Positions 2,991 through 60,878 of a stretch of 64,000 bases of DNA are shown in pieces (position 1 is the stretch's first letter; each line of letters opens with the position of its first letter). The position numbers were made by a program, and so were the translations under genes. The notes beneath the pieces were generated by a model. It saw nothing but the letters and a program-made list of their open reading frames with translations, was not told the origin of the DNA and did not search any database. Source of the DNA: Thermoproteus uzoniensis 768-20 (GTDB taxonomy: Archaea; Thermoproteota; Thermoprotei; Thermoproteales; Thermoproteaceae). The stretch is from NCBI RefSeq assembly GCF_000193375.1, contig NC_015315.1:1620622-1684621 (forward strand). Direction: 5' to 3'.

Positions 2991-3099
2991 TGTCGGAATC
3001 GCCGCGAACTCCTATCCGTGATATTTTTTACCGACTTAGCGCGTATTTATTTGTACTTCTTCACAGCAATGTAAATATATAGTCTAAATAACACGACGA

Positions 3100-4458
3100 A
3101 TGGAGCAGTCGACTATAGCTGGTCGGTTAGAAAGAATCCCGTGGACATCGTTCCATACGCGCTTGATTATATTACTAGCGATCGGCGAGTTCTTCGAGCT
3201 CTACGACCTATTCGTAGGCGGCTTCGTGACAGTCCCGGTGTCGAATTACTATAATATCTCCCTTGCGGCGTCTATATACTATGTAGTCGCTCTGCTGTTT
3301 CTCGGGGCCTTTGTAGGCGCCATAGTCTTCACGCTTATAGGGGATCTATGGGGCAGAAGGACGGCGCTTCTCTTCAACCTAGCCCTCATGAGCCTCGCCT
3401 ACCTCGCCACGCCGTTTGCGCCGAGCCCCGAAGTCCTCGGCGCGTTGAGGTTCGTCGCGGGGCTGGGCGTGGGGCCCGAGGCCTTGATAGTCCTCGACAT
3501 AATGATCTCGGAGTTCTTCCCGGCGAAGATCAGGGGAAGGGCGCTGGCTACTGCGTACACGATAAGCTGGACCGCGCCTCTGGCGACGGCCTTGCTGGCC
3601 TACTATCTGGTCCCCCACACGTATCTGGGGCTCCAGGGATGGCAGTGGATGTTCGTAATAGGCGGGCTCGGCATACTGCTGTTCTTGCCGTTCCGCTTCC
3701 TGATCCCCGAGTCTCCCCGTTGGCTTGAGGTCAAGGGCAGGACCGCGGAGGCCGAGAGGATCGTGGCCAAGATAGAGGAGGTGGCCGTTAGGGAGAAGGG
3801 CCCGCTACCGCCGCCGGTCCCCGTGCCTGTCGTGAGGGCTGAGAGGGTGCCTCTCGGCGAGCTCTTCAACGAGGAGTACAGGCGCAGGACCATAATGCTG
3901 TGGATATTCGAGTTCTTGCAGACCGGCGTCTACTACGGCTTCGCGAGCTTGGCCCCGGCCGTGCTTTACAGCAAGGGCTTCACCCTCGTGAGGACCCTCG
4001 AGTACTCGGTGTTGATATACACGTCGTATTTCTTGTCGTCGCTTATATCGATATTCGTGATAGACAGCGTCAAGTTCGACAGGAAGTGGCAGGTTGCCCT
4101 CGTGGCGTTGTTGATGGGCGTAGACGGGCTGGCGTTCGGCTACTCCACCACGCCGGTGCAGGTAGTGGCCACGGGCTTCATATTCGGGCTCCTCGCCAAC
4201 ATATTCTCCAACGCGTTCCACCAATACGGCGCAGAGCTGTACCCCACGAGGATAAGGGCGTTCGCCGACGGCGTCCAGTACTCCTTAAGCCGCCTGGGGA
4301 ACTACGTCTGGCTGTCGCTCCTCCCGCTGGTGTTGAAGGCCTACGGCGCCTTCGCCATGTACGCAGTGGTCTTCGCCATGGCGGTGGCCGTGTTCCTCGA
4401 CGTAGGGATACTGGGGCCGAGGGCGTCCCAGATAGAGCTGGAGAAGCTCTCCAAGTGA
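3100..4458 (+). CDS. Major facilitator superfamily transporter (sugar/organic-acid porter type)
   Basis: 452 aa with 12 predicted membrane segments and a cytoplasmic central loop (about 195-255, including the proline run PPPVPVPVV). The loop after segment 2 has the MFS motif GDLWGRR. The loop after segment 6 has FLIPESPRWL, typical of the sugar porter and SV2/organic cation-like branches. GGFVTVP after FFELYDLFV also fits these branches. A TATA box (AAATATATAG, about 3072-3081) sits 26 bp upstream of the ATG, indicating a leaderless monocistronic transcript. Substrate cannot be read from sequence. A second, unrelated MFS gene follows 47 bp downstream with its own TATA box. Confidence 0.9.
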   Translation: MEQSTIAGRLERIPWTSFHTRLIILLAIGEFFELYDLFVGGFVTVPVSNYYNISLAASIYYVVALLFLGAFVGAIVFTLIGDLWGRRTALLFNLALMSLAYLATPFAPSPEVLGALRFVAGLGVGPEALIVLDIMISEFFPAKIRGRALATAYTISWTAPLATALLAYYLVPHTYLGLQGWQWMFVIGGLGILLFLPFRFLIPESPRWLEVKGRTAEAERIVAKIEEVAVREKGPLPPPVPVPVVRAERVPLGELFNEEYRRRTIMLWIFEFLQTGVYYGFASLAPAVLYSKGFTLVRTLEYSVLIYTSYFLSSLISIFVIDSVKFDRKWQVALVALLMGVDGLAFGYSTTPVQVVATGFIFGLLANIFSNAFHQYGAELYPTRIRAFADGVQYSLSRLGNYVWLSLLPLVLKAYGAFAMYAVVFAMAVAVFLDVGILGPRASQIELEKLSK

Positions 4459-4505
4459 CGGCCGCTTTTGCTAAACTTTAAAAGGACCTTGCGCCCCGCC
4501 TTGCG

Positions 4506-5692
<1,187 letters not shown>

Positions 5693-5775
5693 TTTACGTA
5701 TATTTCTATCGGTTTTAAAGCTTTGCCCCGCCGCTTCCAGCGGAGTTCCAAGACCGGCGCGCGGCCCGCCTCGGC

Positions 5776-10102: not shown

Positions 10103-10234
10103 GCAACCCCAACAAAAACAGCCATTTATTACTACAGGATCTGGAGAAGCCGGATATATGTATCTAGATTGGGTTATTGGAACATTCGGAGTTCCCTATG
10201 AGATAACTATACCATAAGAAAAAATAATGAAAAA
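10103..10234. other. AT-rich spacer
   Basis: No gene. Base composition changes here from GC-rich to clearly AT-rich, and this continues into the 3' half of the exported-protein gene that ends at 10235. Confidence 0.5.
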
Positions 10235-10930
10235 TTAGCTATAAAAGTTACCCTCTTTTTGTTGAACAAATAGTAAGCTATATCCATTTCCAGCTTCATA
10301 TCCCCAAGGTATTAGTGTATTGTTATTCATTACTATTACGTAACTTCCTACAAATTCGTTATTGTAGCTTTGTAATGATTTTATTTCATAAAATATAGAT
10401 CCGGGATATTGGCTTATCCATATTGATGACATAGGATTTGCGTATGCAGATTCCTTATATCCAGTATCTAATGCATACATTAGTTTGTTTACATCTTTTG
10501 GGTCTGTAACTAGTATTGTCCAGTCTCCTGGATTTACCCTATCCAGCAGTATTGTGTTTCCCTCTATGGGTATTTTCACTGTCCCTGTCGTGTTTCCGAT
10601 AACTACTACGTAGGCTAGCGGCTGGAATTGTGTGCCGTATGGCTGGGGTAGCGTAGTTCCCGTATATCTCTGGTTGAACTGCTCGATTGTGCTGACTGCG
10701 TTCTTCAGCGCTGTGCTTGAGGCGTTGTATGTGCCTAGGCCGTGCCAGTTTCCTTGGGTGTCGTAGTAGCCTAGCTCGTAGACTCCTCCCCTAGGCAGTA
10801 GAAAGACGTAGGGCGCCTCCACAGCCACGTAGCTGACCGGCGGGCCCGAGGGGCGCGAGAAGAAGAGAAGGAGGACAACGACGGCAGCCACGACGGCGAC
10901 GGCAACAGCCGCCACAAGCCACAGACGCAT
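10235..10930 (-). CDS. Membrane-anchored extracellular protein of unknown family
   Basis: About 231 aa with one N-terminal membrane segment (residues 3-25, AAVAVAVVAAVVVLLLFF) and an otherwise extracellular body rich in Tyr, Asn, Thr and Ser. Several N-glycosylation sequons are visible (NAS, NTT). The family is not recognised. The ATG at 10930 is chosen because TTTAAAAA (10951-10958) is 26 bp upstream. Composition is striking: the first 100 codons use GC-rich codons like the neighbours, but from about 10560 to the end A/T-ending codons dominate, suggesting a different origin or a fast-evolving, cell-surface-exposed part. Confidence 0.75.
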   Translation of the reverse strand: MRLWLVAAVAVAVVAAVVVLLLFFSRPSGPPVSYVAVEAPYVFLLPRGGVYELGYYDTQGNWHGLGTYNASSTALKNAVSTIEQFNQRYTGTTLPQPYGTQFQPLAYVVVIGNTTGTVKIPIEGNTILLDRVNPGDWTILVTDPKDVNKLMYALDTGYKESAYANPMSSIWISQYPGSIFYEIKSLQSYNNEFVGSYVIVMNNNTLIPWGYEAGNGYSLLFVQQKEGNFYS

Positions 10931-10972
10931 ACCCAAGACAAGCCCCTCATTTTAAAAATTGACTACGCGTAT

Positions 10973-18533: not shown

Positions 18534-19325
18534 TCATCTCCTCTCCAACGAGGCTACGTAGGCCAGGAGCTCCGCGGCCACGTCCACCCCGCTGGCCTTG
18601 GAGACGGCCTTAAATTCGGGCACTACGTTGACCTCTCCGACGAAATAGCCGTCGGGGCTTATCAGTATGTCGACGCCGGCGTAATCGGCGTTGAGGGCCT
18701 TCGCGGCCTTGACGGCGAGCTCCTCGACGTCGGGCGGGGGCTTGATGCCCTCGACGTGCCCGCCTCTGGCAGCGTTGCTACGCCAGTCGCCGGGCGGCGG
18801 CCGCCTCACCATGGCGGCGGCTACCCTATAGCCTATCACGAAGGCCCTTATATCCGTCCCGTCGCCTACCCGCTCCTGCACGAGGTAGACCTCGTCGGGC
18901 TCCGCGCCCTTGAGCAACGCCTCGACGTCCTCCCGAGACCTCGCCAGGGCGACCTTCCTCCCCCAGCTACCGAAGGCTGGCTTGACTATGAGCTCGGCCG
19001 CCTCGGGGGCCGCCGGGGCCAGCCGAGTCCTCGGTATGGGCAATCCCGACGCGCGTAGTAGGGCTAGAGCCACGGCCTTGTTCCACCCCGCCGCGAGGGC
19101 CCTCCAGCCGTTGACGGCCACGGCTCCCGAAGCCTCGATGTGTGCGGCCGCTATGGTGGCCTTGTTGTGGCTGAGCGTCCTTATTAGATAAACGCCGGGA
19201 TCGACGTCTTCCGAGAGGTTAAGCCCGTCTACCCTCACCAGCTCGAGACCTACGCCGAGCCTCTCGGCCGCCTTCACTATCATGCGCTCCTCCTCCTTGA
19301 CCAAGTCGACTACGAGCCTCACCAC
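18534..19325 (-). CDS. LysX/ArgX-type ATP-grasp ligase (LysW-amino acid ligase)
   Basis: 263 aa, the length of LysX/ArgX. It attaches alpha-aminoadipate or glutamate to the C-terminus of the carrier protein LysW using ATP. ATP-grasp features are ELIVKPAFGSWGRKVALARS (about 110-130), VYLVQERV, DIRAFVIGYRV, and the metal/ATP site GEVNVVPEFKAVSKASGVDV near the C-terminus, which is diagnostic for this subgroup. It overlaps the carB stop by 7 bp and follows it in the same operon, which favours a role in arginine synthesis (ArgX) or a bifunctional one. The other lysW-pathway genes are not in the window. Confidence 0.85.
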   Translation of the reverse strand: MVRLVVDLVKEEERMIVKAAERLGVGLELVRVDGLNLSEDVDPGVYLIRTLSHNKATIAAAHIEASGAVAVNGWRALAAGWNKAVALALLRASGLPIPRTRLAPAAPEAAELIVKPAFGSWGRKVALARSREDVEALLKGAEPDEVYLVQERVGDGTDIRAFVIGYRVAAAMVRRPPPGDWRSNAARGGHVEGIKPPPDVEELAVKAAKALNADYAGVDILISPDGYFVGEVNVVPEFKAVSKASGVDVAAELLAYVASLERR

Positions 19326-22300
19326 GGCTCTACCCCGAGCCTCCCGCCCTTCCTCAACCAGTCGAAGGCGGCGGCCAGCTCCAGCCCTAGCGAGGGGTGC
19401 AACACGAGGGGGGTCGACGTATCGGCGGCCACGCGCCTTATGGCGTAGTCCCTATCCGGCGTGACGCCTGCCGTGATCACTATGTCGACTTTCTTCCACT
19501 TAATGGCCTCGACGATCTCGGGCGACGGCTCCAGTATATCCAGCCAGGAGAGGCGCCTCTTTATCTCCTCTATCTCCTTCGCGTAGGACTCGTCGAACGT
19601 GTACACCAACGCGTTCCTCGACGGGATCTTGTTGGGCGGGGCTGACAGCCAGCTCTTGAGGAGCGCCTCCTCGAAGACGTCGCCGAACGAGGCGACCTCG
19701 CCGGTGCTGTACATGACGGGGCCCAGCCTCGGGTACGCCCCCCTCACCCTGCTCCAGGAGAACTGAGCCGTCTTGACCCACCACCTGGATGGCCTCAGCA
19801 CCGTCATATCGTCGTCGTAGGGCAACCTCTCCCTAGTCAAGACGTCCGCTGTGAGCGACATGTAGTTGACGCCGGTCGCCTTGCTCACAAACGGCATGGA
19901 GCGGCTCGCCCTCAGGTTCGCCTCTATGACGTACACGTCGTCAGCGACTATGAACTGCACGTTGAGGGGCCCTCTGACGTCGAGCTCTCTGGCTATCATA
20001 TAGGCGATCTCCGCCATCTTCCTAACGGCGGCCTCCGGCGCTCTGCGGGGCGGCATGACCATGGTGGAGTCGCCCGAATGAACGCCGGGCGGCTCCACGT
20101 GCTCTATCGGCGTGACGACGACCCTCCTTCCGTCGGACACAGCGTCTACCTCGGCCTCCACGCCCATCGGCATGAACTTGGACACCACCACGGGGTACTC
20201 GCCGCTGACTCTGGCGGCCTTGGTCAGAAACTCGGCCAGCTCTCCCCTGTTCCTGGCAACCGCCATGTAGGTCCCGCCCAGGACGTAGCTGGGCCTGAGC
20301 AGCACAGGATAGCCGAGATCCTCCGCGAGCTTCTCCGCCTCCTCTATGCTCCTCGCGTAGAACCAAGGCGGCTGTCTTATGCCAAGCTTGTCGAGGAGGC
20401 GCGAGAACTTGCTTCTGTCCTCGGCGAGGTCTATCGACGACGCGCGGGTGCCGCCTATTTTGACCCCCAGACCCTCCAGCTTGGGGTACAGCCTCTGCCC
20501 TATCTGCCCGCCCGCGTAGAGCACCACGACAGGTCCTCCCTCCTTTTCGTATATATCGAGGATCCTCTCGGCCGATATCTCGTCGAAGTACAGCTTGTCT
20601 ACCACGTCCCAGTCAGTCGACACGGTCTCGGGGTTGTAGTTGAGTATAGCGACGCGGTAGCCCCTTCTCTTGAGCTCTAGGGCCAGGTTGACCGTCGCCC
20701 AATCGAACTCGACCGACACGCCTATTCTGAAGACGCCGGCGCCGACCACTAAGTAGTCCACCTTCGGGGAGAGCTCGTCGAACTCCCCGCCGTAGGTGAG
20801 GTACAGGTAGTTCGTGTCGGCGGGCCACTCGCCCGCTAGCGTGTCTATCTTCTTGACGACGGGCCTCCGCCTGTTCTTGGCCAGCTCCTCCGGCTTGGCC
20901 CCCAACGCCAACGCTATCTGTTCATCGGAGAACCCCAGCCTTTTAGCCTCCTCGAGGAGCTCGGGAGACGCGCGCCCGGATTCGAGGACCTTCCAGACGT
21001 CGACAACCCTCTTTATGGCGTTGAGGAAGAATCTGTCCACCTTGGTGAGCTCGTATATCTGGTCCACGGTCGCGCCTAGGTAGAGGGCCTTCGCGGCGTA
21101 GATGGGCCAATACGGCAGGTGGCGCTCGAGGGCGCTCAAGGCCTCATCCAGAGTCGCGGATCTGAAGAGGGGCCCCCCGACGAGGCCCGGCTCGCCTATG
21201 TCTATCATCCTCACGGCCTTCTGCCAGGCCTCCTCGAGGTTGCGGCCTATGCCCATGGCCTCCCCTATGGACATCATCTCCGGCCCAAGCCCCTCGTCTA
21301 CGCCGAAGCGGTCGTTCTCCCAACGCGGGTGCTTCACCACGATGTAGTCGAGAGACGGCTCGAAGGCCGCCACAGTGCGCCTAGTCACTTGGTTCATCAC
21401 CTCGTCGAGGCGGTAGCCCAACGCCAGCTTGGCGGCGATGTAGGCGAGGGGATAGCCCGAGGCCTTCGAGGCCAAGGCGCTGGAGCGCGACATGCGGGGG
21501 TTGGTCTCTATGGCGTACTGCTCCGGCCCGGCGTAATTAACGGCGACTTGGACGTTGCCCTCGCCGATTAGGCCTATGGCCCTCTCGACGGCTATGGAGA
21601 TGTCCCGCGCCGTCTGATACTCGTCGTCGGTGAGCGTCTGGCACGGCGCCACCACTATGGAGTCGCCCGTGTGGTACCCCATGGGGTCTATGTTCTCCAT
21701 GCAGACAACAGCCGCCACGTTGTCGTGGGAGTCCCTCACGACCTCGAACTCTATCTCCTTCCAGCCCTCCAGGTACTTCTCGACCAGGACCTCGCCTATA
21801 GCCGACTGCGCGAAGGCCTTATAGATGCGGGACTCCAGCTCGGCTCTGTTCCTCGCCTTGAAGGCGCCCGCCCCTCCTAGGTTGAACGACACGCGCACCA
21901 TCACGGGGTAGCCCAGCTCCTCGGCCGCCGCCAACGCCTCGTCCGGGCTCCTCGCCGAGCGGCTCGGCGGGATGGGCACGCCCGCCTCCCTCATGGCTTT
22001 CTGGAACAGTTCCCTAGACAGGGCCCTCCTTATGCCCTCCACCGGCGTGCCCACCACCCTCACGCCGTATTTTGAGAGAACCCCGGCGTCGTGCAACTCC
22101 ACGCAGGCGGACAAGGCCGTCTGGCCGCCGAAGCCGCAGGCTATCGCGTCGGGCCTCTCGCGCTCTATGATCTGCTCGAGAAACTCTCTCCTGATGGGGA
22201 GGAAGTAGACCCTATCCGCCAAGACCTTCGAGGTCTGTATAGTGGCGACGTTAGGGTTTACCAGGATCGTTTCTATCCCCTCCTCCCTAAAGGCCTTGAG

Positions 22301-22387
22301 AGCTTGAGAGCCGGAGTAGTCAAACTCGGCGGCCTCCGCGATCTTTATAGCGCCTGAGCCCACCACTAGGATCTTCCTGACGTCCAT
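19319..22387 (-). CDS. carB: Carbamoyl-phosphate synthase large subunit
   Basis: 1022 aa. It makes carbamoyl phosphate for arginine and pyrimidine synthesis from bicarbonate, ATP and ammonia delivered by CarA. The duplicated ATP-grasp architecture is visible: ILVVGSGAIKIAEAAEFDYS at the N-terminus and VVGAGVFRIGVSVEFDWATV at about residue 540 start the two halves. Each has the ATP-grasp strand pair (GYPVMVRVSFNLGGAGAF; GYPVLLRPSYVLGGTYM) and metal ligands (IETNPRMSRSSALASKASGY; VIEANLRASRSMPFVSKATG). The C-terminal allosteric domain is short. carA is not adjacent. CTATATAGG lies 26 bp upstream of the ATG. Confidence 0.97.
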   Translation of the reverse strand: MDVRKILVVGSGAIKIAEAAEFDYSGSQALKAFREEGIETILVNPNVATIQTSKVLADRVYFLPIRREFLEQIIERERPDAIACGFGGQTALSACVELHDAGVLSKYGVRVVGTPVEGIRRALSRELFQKAMREAGVPIPPSRSARSPDEALAAAEELGYPVMVRVSFNLGGAGAFKARNRAELESRIYKAFAQSAIGEVLVEKYLEGWKEIEFEVVRDSHDNVAAVVCMENIDPMGYHTGDSIVVAPCQTLTDDEYQTARDISIAVERAIGLIGEGNVQVAVNYAGPEQYAIETNPRMSRSSALASKASGYPLAYIAAKLALGYRLDEVMNQVTRRTVAAFEPSLDYIVVKHPRWENDRFGVDEGLGPEMMSIGEAMGIGRNLEEAWQKAVRMIDIGEPGLVGGPLFRSATLDEALSALERHLPYWPIYAAKALYLGATVDQIYELTKVDRFFLNAIKRVVDVWKVLESGRASPELLEEAKRLGFSDEQIALALGAKPEELAKNRRRPVVKKIDTLAGEWPADTNYLYLTYGGEFDELSPKVDYLVVGAGVFRIGVSVEFDWATVNLALELKRRGYRVAILNYNPETVSTDWDVVDKLYFDEISAERILDIYEKEGGPVVVLYAGGQIGQRLYPKLEGLGVKIGGTRASSIDLAEDRSKFSRLLDKLGIRQPPWFYARSIEEAEKLAEDLGYPVLLRPSYVLGGTYMAVARNRGELAEFLTKAARVSGEYPVVVSKFMPMGVEAEVDAVSDGRRVVVTPIEHVEPPGVHSGDSTMVMPPRRAPEAAVRKMAEIAYMIARELDVRGPLNVQFIVADDVYVIEANLRASRSMPFVSKATGVNYMSLTADVLTRERLPYDDDMTVLRPSRWWVKTAQFSWSRVRGAYPRLGPVMYSTGEVASFGDVFEEALLKSWLSAPPNKIPSRNALVYTFDESYAKEIEEIKRRLSWLDILEPSPEIVEAIKWKKVDIVITAGVTPDRDYAIRRVAADTSTPLVLHPSLGLELAAAFDWLRKGGRLGVEPW

Positions 22388-23957: not shown

Positions 23958-24668
23958 ATGGACGTCGGCATAGCCGTTACTCTGGCCGCACTCGGCGCCT
24001 CGGCCGCCTCCTACCTAGCTGCCCGTATAGGCTTCTCCCGCCTCGCAGAGGGGCTGGGCATAGAGCCAACGCCTCTATTCGGCGCGGTGTCGATTCTGCT
24101 AGCCGCCGTGATCTTCCTAGGCGTGGAGACCTTGGCGTACAACGTCTATGCTCTCTTCCTCTTGATGGTCCTATTCCTGGCGTTCGCTCTGGCCGGCCTC
24201 TTGATAGCGCTCAGGCACATGATAGAGGAGTACTTCACAGGAATCGTCGTCTCTAGGGTGCACGGCATCCACATAGGCGATTACGTACAGGTGGGCAAGA
24301 CGGCGGGCTACGTAGTAGCTATGAGGCCGACAGCCCTGGTGGTCAGAGACTTCAGGCGCAACCTAGTCCACATACCTTATACTAAATTAATACATGAACC
24401 ATTTAATTTAGTAAAAATAGAAGAAGGACATGAAATTAGGGTATATATGTATATGCCGTATAAAATAGATGTAAATAAACTCAGGGCTGAGCTGGGGGCC
24501 GTCGCCTCGGAATATGGGGTCGAGAACTTCAGAATCGACGTAGATCACATAGGCTATAGGGGCGTCGTATTGGCCGCGCGCGGCATATTGAGAGATCCGA
24601 GGAGGGAGGAGGAGGTCAGGTACGCGTTGCTTGATAAGGCGTATTCACTTCTTGCGTCGAAGAGCTAG
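23958..24668 (+). CDS. MscS-type mechanosensitive channel
   Basis: 236 aa with three membrane segments (about 5-22, 40-58, 62-85). The pore-lining TM3 continues into the MscS beta domain: EEYFTGIVVSRVHGIHIGDY, then VQVGKTAGYVVAMRPTALVV and NLVHIPYTKLIHEPF. The C-terminal alpha/beta domain ends at residue 236. Co-located divergently with a ClC channel, it fits osmotic and ion homeostasis. Codons 140-175 (24375-24480) form an AT-rich island: 30 of 35 end in A or T, unlike the flanks. The last 24 bp overlap the convergent permease gene. Confidence 0.92.
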   Translation: MDVGIAVTLAALGASAASYLAARIGFSRLAEGLGIEPTPLFGAVSILLAAVIFLGVETLAYNVYALFLLMVLFLAFALAGLLIALRHMIEEYFTGIVVSRVHGIHIGDYVQVGKTAGYVVAMRPTALVVRDFRRNLVHIPYTKLIHEPFNLVKIEEGHEIRVYMYMPYKIDVNKLRAELGAVASEYGVENFRIDVDHIGYRGVVLAARGILRDPRREEEVRYALLDKAYSLLASKS

Positions 24669-26587: not shown

Positions 26588-26691
26588 GTCGAATCGTTAA
26601 AGCATAAATATAAGCTAAGCCGCTTTAGGATAGAGATCGTCATCCCCAGCCTATGGCAGTTATGGGCATGGCCGTCGTGAGCGCTAAAATA

Positions 26692-27855
26692 TTACATATA
26701 CATAAATAAAGGAAACATTATAATTATAATAAAGATATATATCGATAATAAATATATGTTATTAATAAATCTATTAATAATCTTATAGTATATAAAAGCA
26801 CCCAGTATGAGCAGGGCTATCGACGCCGGCAACGGCGTCAGAGCCGACGCGGCCGCCATGGTCGACGAAATGCCTGTAGCCAGCCGCGCTAAGTTCGTGT
26901 AGCCTCTATCGGTAAGCCTGGCCCTAGCGAGCCTCTTCAGCACAGCCTCGCTTGCGACCGATAGGAAGTAGTTCAACATGAGTATGGCGAAGAGTATCAA
27001 CACGTAGTAGGCGCCGGGGTTCTGGTACGCCGGGGCGAACTCCGCCGATATCTTCGGCAGAAGCGCTACCGAGGATAGTAGGGAGAATAGGAGCAGGTGT
27101 TCCCAGGGCGTGTGGGCCGCAATAGGATCGCCGAGAAGCAAGACGAACTCGCCCTGCGTGTGGGTGAGCCTCGAGCGCAACGGCTGGCGCCAGCTACCGT
27201 AGCGCGTCTTCATGAGCTTCACAAACAGGTCGTGCGATCTCAGCCCCATGGCCCTAAAGACGTAGATATCGGCCTCCACCTCCAGAGCCCTCACCAAGAC
27301 GAAGAGCAGGTAAACGGTCGAGATTACCAACGCCACCGAAAACACATAGACGTAGGCCGGGAGCGAGCCCAGGGAGGCGTAAGTCGCCGGCAGGGCCGCC
27401 ATCTCTCCGTAGAGGACGGCGCCTACCGCCCATATCTTGGCCGGGTGTTTGAGCCTCGCGTGAGCCTCCTCGTGGAGCTCGACGAACCTCTCCAAGTCGG
27501 GATCCTCCCCGCCGCTCAGCACCACGAAGGACACCCACCGCGTCAGTCCGCCCGTGGTGAAGCCGTAAGGCTTCGCGCCGTCTATCTTGATCTTTATCAA
27601 GTGGATTCCTCTGCCTACCCTGAATATCTTGCCGGCCGCGAGCTCTAGGGATAGAACCAGCGCTAGGAACATGCCGGAGCCCAGAGAGGCCAGCGCCAGG
27701 TACGGCGTCAGCCCGTCGTAGGGCCCGGCCGCAATCTTGTTCAACAACGGCGCCATGAGGCGCGCCAGCCGTATTTGGGCGTATAGTAGGGCTAGGCCTG
27801 AGGGGACCAACGCAGACGACGCCGCGATCAGCAGACTGCCCGCGCCGATCCTCAC
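26692..27855 (-). CDS. Membrane zinc metalloprotease (M48/M56-like)
   Basis: 387 aa with about seven membrane segments. The HExxH-type motif is HEEAH (H128-H132) in FVELHEEAHARLKHP, and a downstream glutamate in ALEVEADIY is the likely third zinc ligand; together these fit gluzincins of the HtpX/BlaR1 class. The catalytic part faces the cytoplasm between helices 3 and 4. The last 35 codons switch to AT-rich codons (IIIIMFPLFMYM end), unlike the rest of the gene. TATA-like CTATTTTAG lies 25 bp upstream. The family role, membrane-protein quality control, is inference. Confidence 0.75.
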   Translation of the reverse strand: MRIGAGSLLIAASSALVPSGLALLYAQIRLARLMAPLLNKIAAGPYDGLTPYLALASLGSGMFLALVLSLELAAGKIFRVGRGIHLIKIKIDGAKPYGFTTGGLTRWVSFVVLSGGEDPDLERFVELHEEAHARLKHPAKIWAVGAVLYGEMAALPATYASLGSLPAYVYVFSVALVISTVYLLFVLVRALEVEADIYVFRAMGLRSHDLFVKLMKTRYGSWRQPLRSRLTHTQGEFVLLLGDPIAAHTPWEHLLLFSLLSSVALLPKISAEFAPAYQNPGAYYVLILFAILMLNYFLSVASEAVLKRLARARLTDRGYTNLARLATGISSTMAAASALTPLPASIALLILGAFIYYKIINRFINNIYLLSIYIFIIIIMFPLFMYM

Positions 27856-51115: not shown

Positions 51116-51916
51116 GTGATAACGGCTCTAGGGCCAGACGCGCTCCCTGAGATAGAGAGGAAGGACGCGTTGATATTGTTGGCGGTCCACAGCTACATCC
51201 CAGTCCCCTCCAATCCCCGCCCCGAGATGATCGAGGCGATCTTGGAGAGGTTGCAGGGACGCGACATAACTATAACTTTCTCCATGTCTAAAAGTTATTT
51301 CGAAAAGGCGGTTAAGATATTGGGTTTAGAAAAGCTTGCGAGCAAATATAAAGCAAAAATAATACAAGTTCAAGGGAACGCCAAGGAGAAGATAGAGCTC
51401 GTCTCGCCGACCGGGCGTAAGGTCCAAGTCAAGGCTCTGCCGCAAGCCTTCGACGAGTCCTTAATGAAGATAGCGTTGGCGATGCCGGTCAGCCACTCCC
51501 AAGTGATCCTCTACCTCAGCATGCCCACGGCTGCGCTCAACATCGTAGATCCCAAGGACTCGCAGAACCTCTACGAGGGCTTTAGGCCGCTCTACAAATA
51601 CATAGCGGACATATACAAGATGGAGAGGAACTTCGTATGCGTGATAGACGGCAAGTTCGTGGTCGAGGGAGACGGCCCCGTCAAGGGCTTCCAGAGATAC
51701 TGGGGCTTGACCATATACGGCGACAACTGCGGCGAGGTCGACTACGCCACGTCGTGGGGTCTAGGCGTGCCGCCTTTCGATTTGGGCTATCTATACTTCT
51801 ACTTCGACGGGAAGGAGCCCGCCGTGGACATACCGAAGATGTTGAGCGATAGCAGGACCAAGATAAAGCTGTCCTCCAACGTGGGGATACAGCTCAGTTG
51901 GAAACGCCAGCTCTAG
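51116..51916 (+). CDS. DUF362 family protein
   Basis: 266 aa. VCVIDGKFVVEGDGPVKGFQ and the following DYATSWGLGVPPFDLGYLYF match the DUF362 domain; no CxxCxxC ferredoxin motif is present, so this is the iron-sulfur-free form. GTG start about 30 bp after ATAGATATATTTAG. Codons about 57-86 (51285-51375) form an AT-rich island (SKSYFEKAVKILGLEKLASK region) inside GC-rich flanks. Function unknown. Confidence 0.78.
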   Translation: MITALGPDALPEIERKDALILLAVHSYIPVPSNPRPEMIEAILERLQGRDITITFSMSKSYFEKAVKILGLEKLASKYKAKIIQVQGNAKEKIELVSPTGRKVQVKALPQAFDESLMKIALAMPVSHSQVILYLSMPTAALNIVDPKDSQNLYEGFRPLYKYIADIYKMERNFVCVIDGKFVVEGDGPVKGFQRYWGLTIYGDNCGEVDYATSWGLGVPPFDLGYLYFYFDGKEPAVDIPKMLSDSRTKIKLSSNVGIQLSWKRQL

Positions 51917-54154: not shown

Positions 54155-54462
54155 GGCGCAACTCTCTTGAGGATCGCCTCGCCTAGATATCCCTCCTCTA
54201 CCACCTCCACGGACTCCTCGAACTGCTCTACGCTCTCCTCAACATCCTCCTCTAGATCCTCAACCGGCTCCTCGTCCTCCGCGACGGCCCACCTGCTTCT
54301 ACGATCAACCGACGTCACGGGGATGTTGGCTAGCCGTGCGGCCTCCCTCGCCGCATCTATCCCCGACTCTAGGTATATCAGTGCTATCAATCTCAGCCTC
54401 TCAGCTAGTGACAGATCGGCCAGCTTATGAAGATGGGCGACCAGCCGCGCCTTGACCGCCAC
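54145..54462 (-). CDS. Hypothetical acidic protein, about 105 aa
   Basis: N-terminal helical domain (KARLVAHLHKLADLSLAERL, then LIYLESGIDAAREAARLANI) followed by a strongly acidic linker (EEPVEDLEEDVEESVEQFEE) and a short conserved tail (GYLGEAILKRVAPWS). The frame opens at 54642, but GTG 54462 lies 24 bp from GAATATAAG and removes overlap with the divergent gene. Acidic low-complexity plus terminal basic motif suggests a partner-binding adaptor; inference only. Confidence 0.7.
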   Translation of the reverse strand: MAVKARLVAHLHKLADLSLAERLRLIALIYLESGIDAAREAARLANIPVTSVDRRSRWAVAEDEEPVEDLEEDVEESVEQFEESVEVVEEGYLGEAILKRVAPWS

Positions 54463-54604
54463 AGAACATAAAGGCCCTCCGAATATAAGCGAAATAATTA
54501 AGAAATGTTCGGTGGACTTTCCTAAAAGTGATGAGGACTTCAAGGGCTCTCGATGGCCGGCTATCGCCGCACTGAAAGATAAAAGTCCGGCGTTGACTAC
54601 TGCT

Positions 54605-55264
54605 ATGGATATCAAAAACCTGGTTTCCGATGTGGGCGTCAAGGTGGCGTATCAGACCGTGCGGGGAATAAACAACGCGATGAGGCCCAAGGAGTTGGAC
54701 GCTCTTATAAAATCTGCCGAGGAAGAAGTTAGAAATAAATATAAAATAGAAGACTTAAAAAATAATAAAATTATTAGAATATATAGAGATTTTTATTGGA
54801 AAGTTATAAAGATAGATCCGACTAAGCAACGTCCAGCCCAGGAGGCGTTGTTGCGTAGAGTGCTCCACGGAGAGCCTCTGCCGAGGATAAACCCGGCGGT
54901 GGATATAGGCAACGTGGCGTCGATAAAGTGGCTCCTTCCAGTGGGGCTCTACGACATAGATAAGATAGGTAGCGAGTCGTTAGAGCTTAGATGGTCCAGG
55001 GGCGAGCTCTTCAGACCGATAGGAGGCAAGCCGGTCCAGGTAAACGGCCAGATAATACTCGCCGCTGGGGACGTGGTGTTGCACGTATATCCCTATAGGG
55101 ATAGCGAGCTTACTAAGGTCGACGAAAGTACCAAGAACGTATTGATAGTGGTTGCTGGGCTAAAAGAAATAGAGAACGACTCGCTTATCGAATGCGCTAA
55201 GTTCATTTCTACTAATTTCGAACAATTATTGGGAGGAAAAGCCGGCGATATTAAAATTATTTGA
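54605..55264 (+). CDS. B3/B4 tRNA-binding-domain protein
   Basis: 219 aa with the B3/4 editing-type fold known from PheRS beta subunits: VGVKVAYQTVRGINNAMRPK, RPAQEALLRRVLHGEPLPRI, NPAVDIGNVASIKWLLPVGL and DIDKIGSESLELRWSRGELF. Free-standing B3/4 proteins may edit mischarged tRNA; substrate unknown. I start at ATG 54605, 26 bp after GATAAAAG, not at 54452. Codons about 38-70 (54715-54815) form an AT-rich island. Confidence 0.82.
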   Translation: MDIKNLVSDVGVKVAYQTVRGINNAMRPKELDALIKSAEEEVRNKYKIEDLKNNKIIRIYRDFYWKVIKIDPTKQRPAQEALLRRVLHGEPLPRINPAVDIGNVASIKWLLPVGLYDIDKIGSESLELRWSRGELFRPIGGKPVQVNGQIILAAGDVVLHVYPYRDSELTKVDESTKNVLIVVAGLKEIENDSLIECAKFISTNFEQLLGGKAGDIKII

Positions 55265-56573
55265 TCTTCTCAAGGAACATATCTATGATCTCTTTAATAG
55301 AGGGCCCTTCAAGTATTTTTAGATCCCATTTAACCCTAACAATAGGTTTAGTTATCTTTATAACCTCCTCTATCCTCGCCGGCGTCCCTATGACGACGAC
55401 GTCGACGTCGGCTCTGGCGATGGTCTCCTCGAGATCTCTCTTCTGCTCGTCGGTGTAGCCCAAGCTGGGCAACACGGGCCCCATGTGGCTGTATTTGGCG
55501 TACAGTTCCTTTATGGACCCCACGGCGAAGGGCCTGGGATCGACCACCTTGGCCCCGTACTTCTGCGCGGCGATATACCCGGCGCCGTAGGGCAAGCCTC
55601 CGTGGGTGACCGTCGGCGCATCCTCGATGACTAGGACGCGTCTGCCGTTGACGGCGTCCGGCCTCTCGAGAGAGACCTCCAGATCGGCCTTAGCCACTAC
55701 GGCTCTCGGGTTGTTGCGCCTCGCGTTGTCCTCTACGACCTTCACCTTATCCGGCCCGGCGTCGCTCACCTTGGTGATTATAACGACGTCTGCTATGCGT
55801 AGATTGACCTCGCCGGGGAACGACCCCACCTCGTGGCCGGGCCTCCTGGCATCTGCGACCACCACGGCGAAGTCCGGCCTGAAGAACGGGAAGTCGTTGT
55901 TCCCCCCATCCCACAGAACGACATCGCCCAGCTCCTCGGCCTTATTCAAGATCCTCCCGTAGTCCACGCCGGCGAGCACCGGGATCCCCATATCCACGTA
56001 CTGCTCGTACTCTTCCCGCTCCTCGAAGGTTATCTTGGCGAGATCCTCCTTGGTCCTATACAGCTCGACCGCGCTGGCCGCCAGATCTCTGTAGGGCATG
56101 GGGTGTCTGACCGCCACCACTCTCAATCCCCTGGCCGCCATCTCTCTGACCAGAGCCCGGCTGACGGTGGACTTGCCGGCGCCGGTCCTGGTAGCCAACA
56201 CGGCCAGCACCGGCTTGATCGAGTTGAGGTAGGTGTCGTTGGGCCCCAATATCCTGAACGACGCGCCGGCGCTCAACGCCGATGATATTATGTGGCCCAC
56301 GTCCTCGTACAACAAGTCGCTGTACGCCAACACCACCTCGTCTACGCGGAGACTACGTATCAGCTCAGCTAGCTTATTGTAGTCGCTCCACGTATATATG
56401 GGGATCCCGTTGGGGTAGAGATCGCCCGCAAGCTCTCTCGGATATCGTCGGCCAGGTATGGGTATCTGGGTCATTAAAAAAGCCACCACCTCGTACTCCC
56501 TATTGTCTCTGAAGAACGTGTTAAACACGTGGAAGTCCCTACCTGCGGCCCCCACTATCGCCACCCTCCGCAT
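55257..56573 (-). CDS. Cyclic 2,3-diphosphoglycerate synthetase-type P-loop protein
   Basis: 438 aa. RRVAIVGAAGRDFHVFNTFF (Rossmann start), ELAGDLYPNGIPIYTWSDYN, VLAYSDLLYEDVGHIISSAL and a P-loop VLATRTGAGKSTVSRALVRE (about 131-150) match archaeal proteins annotated as cyclic 2,3-diphosphoglycerate synthetase. cDPG is a thermoprotectant in some archaea; whether this family member makes it is uncertain, since it is widespread beyond cDPG producers. It overlaps the convergent B3/4 gene by 8 bp. Confidence 0.75.
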   Translation of the reverse strand: MRRVAIVGAAGRDFHVFNTFFRDNREYEVVAFLMTQIPIPGRRYPRELAGDLYPNGIPIYTWSDYNKLAELIRSLRVDEVVLAYSDLLYEDVGHIISSALSAGASFRILGPNDTYLNSIKPVLAVLATRTGAGKSTVSRALVREMAARGLRVVAVRHPMPYRDLAASAVELYRTKEDLAKITFEEREEYEQYVDMGIPVLAGVDYGRILNKAEELGDVVLWDGGNNDFPFFRPDFAVVVADARRPGHEVGSFPGEVNLRIADVVIITKVSDAGPDKVKVVEDNARRNNPRAVVAKADLEVSLERPDAVNGRRVLVIEDAPTVTHGGLPYGAGYIAAQKYGAKVVDPRPFAVGSIKELYAKYSHMGPVLPSLGYTDEQKRDLEETIARADVDVVVIGTPARIEEVIKITKPIVRVKWDLKILEGPSIKEIIDMFLEKIK

Positions 56574-57647: not shown

Positions 57648-57813
57648 GTAAATAACGAGGTCCCTATTTAGTTGTGATGAGGATGGTCTTTGCCGATCGA
57701 TGAGGAAGGGAACGAATGCTGATTCCTGAAATATGGGGTGGGCAAAAGTTTCATTCAACTCTACTCCGATTATCTTAAATATAAGAGACTATATATGGAA
57801 ATTGGGGGATGAT

Positions 57814-60366
57814 ATGGCTGTTAAGGTCATCAAGGCGTCTGGCGCCAAGGAGGACTTCTCAGAGGAGAAGCTACGCATATCTCTTGTTAGGGCAGCCGCC
57901 GACGTTGGCGTAAGCGTGGACGGAGAGGTGAAGATAAGGCCGACTTCCGATATAACCAGCGCTGAGCTGTCAGACTTAGTCGAGCTCGAGTTGCTCCGCA
58001 AGGCCATAGACAAGCCGGAGCTAGCCGAGGCGGCCAAGTCGCACCTGCTGGGCAGAATATATAAGGAGGCCTTGGGCAAGGACTTTCTGAGAGATAAGTC
58101 CAAGTACGGCGAGAGGGTCTTCGCCTCAGTGGAGAGGCTGGTCAGCGCCGGCCTTCTCAAACAAGAGGCTCTCTCGGCACTACGTTGGGTCGAGCTGAAG
58201 CCCGAGTTCGACCGCTCTCTGAGCTACAACGCATTGAGGCTGTTCACTAATGGCAACTACGCCCTGCGCGGCCCCGACTTCAAGATAGCGGAGACGCCGG
58301 CCGCCGCGGCGGCGAGAGTAGCCACGGCGGTCGCCGGGAGCCCCGAGGCGGCCAGGCTGTACTACGACGCCATAACATCGCTGAGGATAGTCCCGGCCTC
58401 GCCTTTCTGGTTCAACGCGTGGACCAAGAAGGAGATGTTCGCCTCCTGCTTCACTCTGGAGGTGGAGGACTGCCTCTCCTCCCTCACCCATCCGGGGAGG
58501 TACTGCATATACGACGCCTTGGCATACTCGGGCATAATACAGCAGTTGGGCGGCGGCGTCGGCTACGACTTCTCCCTACTCCGCCCCGAGGGCGACGTGG
58601 TGAGGGGGAGTGTAGGGGTTGCGTCGGGCCCCATCAGCTTCATGAAGCTCTTCGACGCCAACGTAGACGTCATAAAGCAAGGCGGCAAGCGCCGCGGGGC
58701 GCAGATGGGCACTCTCCACGTCTGGCACCCGGATATCCGCAAGTTCATCAAGGCCAAGACAGGCGAGTTGAAGGACGCACATCTGCAGAACTTCAACATA
58801 TCGGTCTTCGTGGACGACACATTCATGGAGAAGGCGCTCGGCGTAGATCAGAACCCGAAATACCCGTTGATAAACCCCCGCGTCTTCTACGACAAGACGG
58901 GGCAGAAGGCTGTGGAGCACGTGGACGTATACAAGGAGGCCGAGGTGCCCAGAGACGCCATATGGGGCGAGGTAGACGCCAGCCAGCTCTTCCGCGAGAT
59001 ATCGAACAGCGCTTGGGATTCCGGCGATCCGGGCCTTATATTTAAGGCCAATCTAAACGCCTCTAACCCGCTCTTGGGCGAAGAGATAGAGGTCGCCGGA
59101 TATCGCTTTACATATATATGGAGATCCGTTAATCCATGTGCAGAGACTGTTCAAAATCCATTCGAGGTATGTAATCTAACTCACATAAATCTTGTAAAGT
59201 TCATAAAGGATAATTGTGCCGGTAGTTCATTCGAGGAGAAGCTGGCGTGTATAGATTGGGAGGGCTTGGCCCAAGCCGCGAGGTTGGGGACGCGCTTCCT
59301 CGACAGTGCCATAGACAGAAGCCGCACAGGTATAGAGATAGTGGACGAGATGAACTCGGCCACCAGGAAGAACGGGCTGGGCATCATGGGCTTCGCGGAG
59401 CTCCTCATAAAGCTCGGGATACCCTACGCGTCTTGGGAAGCCGTGGAGTTGATAAACCGCATCATGGGCTGGATATACGTCAATGCGCTGGACGCCTCGG
59501 CCGACCTCGCGAGGGAGAAAGGGCCGTTTAAGTATTTCGAGAAGTCGATATATGCCAGAGGCGAGCTGCCCGCTCTGAAGTTCCAAGACTTCGTCTGGTC
59601 GCGGTGGGAGCGGGTCAAACACGTCTATCCGCCGGAGCTGAGGGATGCGGGCGATCGCCTTAGGGAGATCACGGAGAGGACAAGGCAGTGGCTTCTGCCG
59701 TATATAGAGAAGCTTAAGGAAAAGGTCAAGGGCGGCGTGAGGAACTCCGTGGTGCTTTCCATAGCCCCGACCGGCAGGACCAGCATATTGGCGGGCACGA
59801 CCAGCGGGATAGAGCCCGTGTTCGCGTTGGCCTTTCTCCGCAACGTCACGGTGGGCACGTTGGTGGAGTACTACGAGCCGGGGATAGAGTATCTCAAGGC
59901 GAGGGGCCTCTGGACGCCTGCGGTGAGGAAGGCGGTGGAGGAGACCGGCATGTTGAGGGACGCCCCCGTGCCTGAGGACGTCAAACACTTGCTGGCGACC
60001 GCCATGGAGATAGGCTGGCTCTGGCACGTCCTCATGCAGGCGAGCGCCCAGCAGTGGGTGGACCAAGGCATCTCCAAGACGATAAACATGCCCGCCAACG
60101 CGCCGAGCGACGACGTGTATTGGGCCTTTGCGTTGGCCTGGGCGCTGGGGGTCAAAGGCATAACCGTGTATAGGGATAAGTCGAAGTCTGTGCAGGTGAT
60201 ATACACGGGCTTGAAGCAAGAGATAAAGAAGAAGTTGGCGGAGACGAAGATAACGGTGAGGCCTATATCGCTCGAGACGTCTATAGACGAGGCGGCTAAC
60301 GAGGTCAAGCTGAAGGCCTTGGAGGAGGGCAAGGATCCGTACTGCAAGACTGGCGAGTGTAGCTAA
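57814..60366 (+). CDS. nrdJ: Adenosylcobalamin-dependent ribonucleotide reductase (class II)
   Basis: 850 aa. N-terminal ATP-cone (about 1-95, VKVIKASGAKEDFSEEKLRI). Catalytic barrel: PFWFNAWTKKEMFASCFTLE (first redox Cys), GGGVGYDFSLLRPEGDVVRG, SVNPCAETVQNPFEVCNLTH (NPCAE radical site), and SIAPTGRTSILAGTTSGIEP. The C-terminal DPYCKTGECS supplies the reductant Cys pair. A TATA-like TCTTAAATAT gives a start near 57803, leaving an 11-nt leader with GGGGGAT before ATG 57814, one of the few genes here with a possible Shine-Dalgarno. The NPCAE region (59100-59225) is an AT-rich codon island. Confidence 0.96.
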   Translation: MAVKVIKASGAKEDFSEEKLRISLVRAAADVGVSVDGEVKIRPTSDITSAELSDLVELELLRKAIDKPELAEAAKSHLLGRIYKEALGKDFLRDKSKYGERVFASVERLVSAGLLKQEALSALRWVELKPEFDRSLSYNALRLFTNGNYALRGPDFKIAETPAAAAARVATAVAGSPEAARLYYDAITSLRIVPASPFWFNAWTKKEMFASCFTLEVEDCLSSLTHPGRYCIYDALAYSGIIQQLGGGVGYDFSLLRPEGDVVRGSVGVASGPISFMKLFDANVDVIKQGGKRRGAQMGTLHVWHPDIRKFIKAKTGELKDAHLQNFNISVFVDDTFMEKALGVDQNPKYPLINPRVFYDKTGQKAVEHVDVYKEAEVPRDAIWGEVDASQLFREISNSAWDSGDPGLIFKANLNASNPLLGEEIEVAGYRFTYIWRSVNPCAETVQNPFEVCNLTHINLVKFIKDNCAGSSFEEKLACIDWEGLAQAARLGTRFLDSAIDRSRTGIEIVDEMNSATRKNGLGIMGFAELLIKLGIPYASWEAVELINRIMGWIYVNALDASADLAREKGPFKYFEKSIYARGELPALKFQDFVWSRWERVKHVYPPELRDAGDRLREITERTRQWLLPYIEKLKEKVKGGVRNSVVLSIAPTGRTSILAGTTSGIEPVFALAFLRNVTVGTLVEYYEPGIEYLKARGLWTPAVRKAVEETGMLRDAPVPEDVKHLLATAMEIGWLWHVLMQASAQQWVDQGISKTINMPANAPSDDVYWAFALAWALGVKGITVYRDKSKSVQVIYTGLKQEIKKKLAETKITVRPISLETSIDEAANEVKLKALEEGKDPYCKTGECS

Positions 60367-60401: not shown

Positions 60402-60878
60402 ATGTTCGATCTAATAGTCAAGGCGGTGAGAATAGGCCTAATGGTGCTGTTGGGCTCAGTCATATATTCTGTGTTTTATCTCTGGTTCTATGGTTTGTTT
60501 GATGTTAGAATTATATTAATTGGAATATATACAATGACATTAATATCAATAATTCCATATATATTTATAAATATAATCCATAATATTAAGAATAGACATG
60601 ACGGACGTTGGATAATCTACATCGCGCTGTCCGTATCGCTATTGTTTTCCATATCGGTAGCATATGCTAGGTTGCTATCTCTGGAGAACTATATCCAGCC
60701 CGTATCTGTCCCTCAGCTACGTTACGACGGCACTCTGGCGCTGTCCCTCGCATTGTTGGGGCTGGCCTCCCTGCTCTATCTCGGCTCTGTGGTTCCCGAC
60801 ATAAGGAGGATCGCCGACAAGTTCGTTCTGGCGTTGAGGGAGGGGCGCGAAGAGGAGTACGAGGTTGAGATAGTTTAG
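60402..60878 (+). CDS. Membrane protein of unknown family, 158 aa
   Basis: Four membrane segments (about 8-28, 34-52, 72-90, 108-125) and a charged C-terminal tail (RIADKFVLALREGREEEYEV). Family not recognised. Codons about 25-70 (60475-60610) are extremely AT-rich (RIILIGIYTMTLISIIPYIF region), flanked by GC-rich codons at both ends of the same gene. It lies 36 bp after nrdJ, possibly cotranscribed. Confidence 0.72.
   Translation: MFDLIVKAVRIGLMVLLGSVIYSVFYLWFYGLFDVRIILIGIYTMTLISIIPYIFINIIHNIKNRHDGRWIIYIALSVSLLFSISVAYARLLSLENYIQPVSVPQLRYDGTLALSLALLGLASLLYLGSVVPDIRRIADKFVLALREGREEEYEVEIV

Follow-up and report, generated by a model that had tools for sequence, protein, structure and literature searches.

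The window analysed here is a 64,000-nucleotide stretch (positions 1620622-1684621 of G000:C1) of the complete 1,936,063-base genome of Thermoproteus uzoniensis 768-20. It contains a forward-strand gene of the MscS family at 23958-24668 (Pfam MS_channel_2nd, E 1.6e-8), and within this gene, at 24375-24479 (codons 140-174), lies an island of AT-rich codons. Thirty-one of the 35 codons end in A or T (permutation p < 5e-5), one more than the 30 counted in an earlier, sequence-only reading of this DNA, and the reading frame is unbroken over both borders, as that reading had also stated. The stretch has a GC content of 0.24 and the whole gene a GC3 of 0.64, the value for the aligned-gene set being 0.775. 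The null for this and the other listed islands was a synonymous permutation within the gene that leaves both the encoded protein and the codons used by the gene unchanged (20,000 permutations). The lowest 25-codon window of the MscS gene has a single G/C-ending codon, and none of the 20,000 permutations was equally low; the bias is thus real. Upstream of the gene, a region of about 21 kb (~2512-23956), which includes the gene for the carbamoyl-phosphate synthase large subunit (19322-22387) and MFS-transporter genes, is missing from the syntenic place in the Thermoproteus genomes G003 and G002; its counterpart in Thermoproteus sp. CP80 (G005) comprises 3047-5733 only, adjoining MscS and inverted. 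A long AT-rich region at 10138-10527, unlike the short islands, lies over a reverse-strand ORF (10235-10936) that is likely a foreign or orphan gene.

Relatives used for comparison were CP80, the Thermoproteus genomes G003, G002 and G004, and Pyrobaculum-type genomes. The gene order of CP80, G003 and G002 is collinear with the window from ~24 kb on. The MscS island is present in CP80 (GC3 0.11), and the same region is without an island in G003 (0.57), G002 (0.60), G004 (0.60) and most Pyrobaculum-type orthologues (0.49-0.80); the MscS gene of G010 has a GC3 of 0.26, but is low over its entire length. The island protein is 0.77-0.83 identical to those of CP80 and G003 and 0.40-0.49 identical to Pyrobaculum-type proteins, and the replacements that separate it from G003 (R to K, V to I, H to Y, GS to KI) run AT-ward. 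Island and flanks have the same nearest relatives, CP80 first and then G003, which is not the pattern of a replaced tract. A search with the island DNA in 45 genomes of the order yielded no donor, the true matches being the CP80 and G003 orthologues only. Because CP80 has the island and the other relatives do not, while the protein stays Thermoproteus-type, we conclude that the recoding of the MscS tract took place in situ and predates the split of T. uzoniensis and CP80. The sequence-only reading had named AT bias at the same residues in orthologues from GC-rich genomes as the sign of selection on protein or RNA. The GC-rich MscS orthologues lack this bias, with CP80, the closest relative, as the sole exception; protein constraint therefore does not explain the MscS island, and for this island both it and chance were rejected.

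Four further islands had been named in the earlier reading, and all are beyond chance (p ≤ 5e-5, synonymous permutation). All lie on the forward strand. The weakest of those listed, at 51285-51375 in a DUF362-family gene (51116-51916; Pfam), has 21 of 30 codons ending in A or T (p = 5e-5) and is common to CP80 and T. uzoniensis, not G003. At 54715-54815, in a B3/4-domain gene (54452-55264; Pfam), 29 of 34 codons are A/T-ending (p = 5e-5), and the island is common to T. uzoniensis, CP80 and G003 (GC3 0.04-0.08), the G002 value being 0.80. The ribonucleotide reductase (RNR) gene has 31 of 42 such codons at 59100-59225 (p < 5e-5). In a small membrane-protein gene (60402-60878), 37 of 45 codons at 60475-60610 end in A or T (p < 5e-5); this island occurs in five Thermoproteus genomes (GC3 0.18-0.33) and is absent from most Pyrobaculum-type orthologues (0.53-0.87), G015 having 0.27. 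At least two islands were added to that list. One, at 55293-55367 on the reverse strand toward the 3' end of the gene at 55257-56573, has a 25-codon GC3 minimum of 0.24, and the region has a GC3 of 0.16 in CP80, 0.68 in G003 and 0.60 in G002. The other is a tract at 26642-26840, located by GC scan (minimum GC 0.11), which covers the 3' end of a reverse-strand gene (26692-27855) and adjoining intergenic DNA and has low GC3 in four Thermoproteus genomes; since it crosses a gene boundary, it is a feature of the DNA rather than of codons. In total, the 43 conserved genes of the window hold 6 islands (25 codons, GC3 ≤ 0.20) against 0.28 expected by synonymous permutation. All five island host genes have collinear orthologues in CP80, G003 and G002. 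This synteny rules out the transfer of whole genes, in agreement with the earlier reading, which had also correctly described the compositional change as local.

The island in the adenosylcobalamin-dependent RNR gene (57733-60366; NrdJ_Z) is a separate case. Among four Thermoproteus genomes only T. uzoniensis has it, and a probable replaced tract at 59104-59211 (forward strand) lies across a point, near 59138, at which an intein inserts. In CP80 this position is occupied by a 396-aa intein, and the RNR genes of the Pyrobaculum-type genomes G011, G013 and G014 are interrupted at residues 467-470, the same site. The T. uzoniensis gene encodes an intact 877-aa protein with neither an intein nor a remnant, so that the tract covers a homing site, as in intein-homing co-conversion, but the recipient is not intein-bearing. 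Informative sites support G007 over the state common to CP80 and G003 by 13:5 in the tract and by 32:169 in the rest of the gene (Fisher p = 1e-6); the nearest relative of the tract thus differs from that of the flanks, as in a replaced tract. Between codons 458 and 493, R458, T460, D493 and silent states match the intein-free G007 and G016 rather than CP80 and G003, with R458 and T460 found in G012 as well. The G007/G016 tract is itself AT-leaning (GC3 0.36-0.43 vs ~0.7 in the flanks). Judged from these matches, the RNR island most likely arose when ~108-110 bp surrounding the intein homing site were overwritten with the sequence of a Pyrobaculum-type allele. Some of the silent matches may be due to convergent AT drift, which does not explain T460 and D493. 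The case resembles intein homing with co-conversion of flanking extein sequence in its site, occupied by an intein in CP80 and interrupted in G011, G013 and G014, and in its replaced-looking tract; it differs in that the T. uzoniensis gene is inteinless, which would mean that the intein was lost, that it was never fixed, or that the flank alone was exchanged. No inteins were seen at the other islands. In Sulfolobus, also a crenarchaeon, short-tract homologous recombination is known between near-identical strains. The tracts exchanged there are comparable in length to the RNR replacement, whereas the RNR exchange would have been between genera.

The GC3 variance ratio is unspecific alone (2.01 for a Thermus plasmid with 0 islands, 1.03 for E. 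coli with one island), and island counts were therefore used. Outside Thermoproteus, 40-60 kb was sampled per genome. Islands far exceed the synonymous-permutation nulls in four Thermoproteus genomes (T. uzoniensis, CP80, G003 and G002), at 2.8-13 excess islands per 10,000 codons of the sampled stretches; the corresponding figure is ~0-1.4 for seven further genomes from the class (G008, G009, G013, G016, G019, G021 and G049, three of them Pyrobaculum-type). An alignment of 455 kb of T. uzoniensis with G003 and G002 (102,000 codons) contains 66 islands, which occupy ~2.9% of codons. Where all three genomes are aligned, 21 islands are confined to T. uzoniensis, 16 also occur in one of the relatives and 23 in both; many islands in the relatives fall at different codons. 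An island specific to CP80 lies in the SerRS gene (codons 206-248; GC3 0.26 vs 0.57-0.81 in 11 other genomes), where the CP80 protein is nearly unaltered (0.93 amino-acid identity to T. uzoniensis). Islands therefore arise lineage by lineage, at differing positions in orthologous genes of Thermoproteus, and persist once formed. They are clustered along the chromosome: 61 of the 66 islands lie at 1560-1780 kb, which has 57% of the codons (20-kb bins, p = 7e-4), and further island-rich samples come from around 400 and 800 kb. The only Cdc6/Orc1 found in the T. uzoniensis genome is at 1.42 Mb, outside the island-dense region, which provides no link to a replication origin. Contact with gene 3' ends is about five to six times expectation (11 islands vs 1.8 expected in T. 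uzoniensis, 8 vs 1.4 in G003 and 6 vs 1.3 in G002).

All codon positions lose GC in the islands, with GC1, GC2 and GC3 of 0.35, 0.26 and 0.25 against 0.59, 0.43 and 0.77. On the T. uzoniensis branch, amino-acid changes toward FYMINK number 68 of 126 in islands and 1191 of 4619 in the background. Other changes stay near background: 58/855 in islands vs 3428/60333 for T. uzoniensis, 21/454 vs 3306/60743 for G003 and 85/773 vs 6829/65422 for G002. The rise in amino-acid change on island-bearing branches thus consists of changes toward FYMINK. A diverged import would raise every type of change, and the background rate of the remaining types therefore indicates change in situ rather than imported sequence.

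Silent sites were polarised with a sister genome and an outgroup. Local composition was taken from the sister genome and not from the focal lineage, so the equilibrium-GC analysis is not circular. Equilibrium GC was 0.24 (95% 0.17-0.33) at sister GC3 below 0.3, where the bins are small (48 S sites and 325 W sites), then 0.47 at 0.3-0.5, 0.66 at 0.5-0.6 and 0.79-0.83 above, reaching 0.83 (95% 0.81-0.85) at sister GC3 above 0.8. The older comparison of T. uzoniensis with G003 gave the same direction (0.39 vs 0.74-0.76). W-to-S substitution is lower in AT-rich surroundings (64/325 vs 309/522). In new islands, 12 transitions and 7 transversions from GC to AT were counted at 38 sites, against 333 and 230 at 4592; these polarised counts are partly circular in direction, as the islands were picked as AT-rich, but the comparison of transitions with transversions is free of that. 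C-G exchange was not raised in new islands. As transversions rise alongside transitions, neither a deaminase nor a methyl-cytosine process is chiefly responsible. The balance of S-to-W and W-to-S changes varies locally regardless of transition or transversion class, as GC-biased gene conversion would have it. The substitution bias is therefore local, heritable and direction-specific, and its balance depends in a switch-like manner on local composition. An equilibrium curve of this form has two stable crossings of the diagonal, one low and one high, and this would explain why patches stay distinct and their borders sharp. The earlier suggestion of local mutation hot spots was only partly right, since silent substitution reverses its direction (0.24 vs 0.83). 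Islands common to T. uzoniensis and CP80 diverge little faster than the background, with 105 of 392 two-fold sites differing between the two genomes against 1164 of 4973.

We conclude, with a probability of roughly 0.6, that the islands, RNR apart, are short stretches of the chromosome (~25-45 codons) that have switched from a GC-favouring to an AT-favouring substitution regime. The patches drifted AT-ward in place while the protein was kept, which points to a force acting very locally on base composition rather than to gene transfer. Under this reading, a GC-favouring fixation force (GC-biased repair or conversion, or selection on GC) would be lost or reversed locally, and local AT content would reinforce the switch; candidate reinforcers are an AT-preferring chromatin protein and AT-rich heteroduplex that is unstable near 90 °C. 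The dependence on composition could instead stem from a fixed, unrecognised functional element under each tract, with no feedback. More tentatively, an agent specific to the genus Thermoproteus (a chromatin protein, or a repair or recombination pathway) might impose two stable composition states at the ~100 bp scale, forming a bistable "micro-isochore" system. AT-rich patches would then appear, be maintained and vanish again within conserved genes. In the open-licence literature we found no account of such a system for any prokaryote, nor of such islands in archaea.

That the islands are instead selected DNA or RNA elements turning over between species, such as chromatin-protein sites, unwinding elements or internal promoters, appears unlikely, even though their chromosomal clustering, their 3'-end enrichment and the persistence of some across species (60475-60610 in five Thermoproteus genomes, the 5' end of the PGK gene in most of the family) are in its favour. 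No strong common motif emerged from 196 islands, which display only a mild enrichment of ATAGA/ATATAG-type sequences, and many islands are not at matching codons in relatives. Runs of T5/T6 and sense-strand TATA boxes are depleted in islands relative to the synonymous null (z about -3), and antisense TTTATA is mildly enriched (z 2.9); neither TATA/BRE elements nor oligo-T exceed the synonymous null as internal promoters or terminators would. A sigma70-type scan, whose reach does not extend to archaeal promoters, predicted neither a sigma70-like promoter nor an intrinsic terminator in MscS. Rfam gave no match in any island, the window holding three tRNAs only, all outside islands. Protein constraint, in the sense of AT-coded residues being needed, can draw on the FYMINK-rich composition of the islands, yet G003 and G002 mostly encode the same residues with GC-richer codons; a chance fluctuation of codon usage is still rejected when the protein is held fixed in the permutation. 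We give practically no weight to either.

Replaced tracts, the other possibility raised in the earlier reading, hold for the RNR island only, and not for MscS or for islands generally. The proposal that gene conversion brought in all islands, as short pieces of ~100-130 bp, from related archaea with AT-rich alleles is accordingly quite unlikely. Sharp borders and the RNR tract, with its Pyrobaculum-type residues and AT-leaning donor-type counterpart, are what it predicts; against it stand the missing MscS donor and the Thermoproteus-like MscS island protein, the small amino-acid excess of islands in general except toward FYMINK, and 25-codon windows with GC3 down to 0.04, when no sampled genome has a mean below 0.47 (single genes are lower, such as G010 MscS at 0.26). 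Very improbable, in our judgement, is a runaway of cytosine deamination, in which AT-rich DNA melts at the growth temperature, C deaminates faster and the patch becomes still more AT-rich. It fits both the dependence of the bias on local composition and the hyperthermophily of the organism, which was deduced from its genus. The model predicts changes of C to T and G to A only, however, whereas GC-to-AT transversions rise with the transitions and W-to-S substitution falls, and Pyrobaculum, hyperthermophilic as well, is almost without islands.

This deamination feedback was proposed for isochores by Fryxell and Zuckerkandl (2000), as outlined in a passage of PMC2346554. As described there, it shares with the islands an AT-ward rate that is raised by local AT content and a sharpening of contrasts; it differs in its isochore scale and its C-to-T chemistry, the islands measuring ~100 bp and showing increased transversions and decreased W-to-S change. 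Lassalle et al. (2015; PMC4450053) related GC-biased gene conversion to within-genome GC heterogeneity in prokaryotes through a per-gene correlation with recombination. For the islands, too, a force favouring GC would differ in strength from place to place in a prokaryotic genome, independently of codon selection, and AT-biased mutation would show where it is weak. Unlike that system, the islands switch within genes, over ~100 bp and between two discrete states. Prokaryotic base composition is usually taken as a genome-wide or gene-wide property; a within-gene switch between two regimes with sharp borders would bring the determinants of GC content down to a testable scale. Such patches would be misread as foreign or adaptive in phylogenetics, transfer detection and selection tests. 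As the RNR case illustrates, an inter-genus conversion tract can look alike, and the two kinds need to be told apart.

An AT-rich patch of deeper conservation (GC3 0.17-0.40) occupies the first ~50 codons of the PGK gene (G000:C1:1736637-1737839) in Thermoproteus and in most genomes of the Pyrobaculum type, G006 excepted, and may be functional. The PGK of G018, a partial genome grouped with a Pyrobaculum-type genus, is 89% identical to that of T. uzoniensis (contig G018:C54), the same as CP80 and unlike the RNR of G018; this is possibly due to binning contamination or gene transfer.
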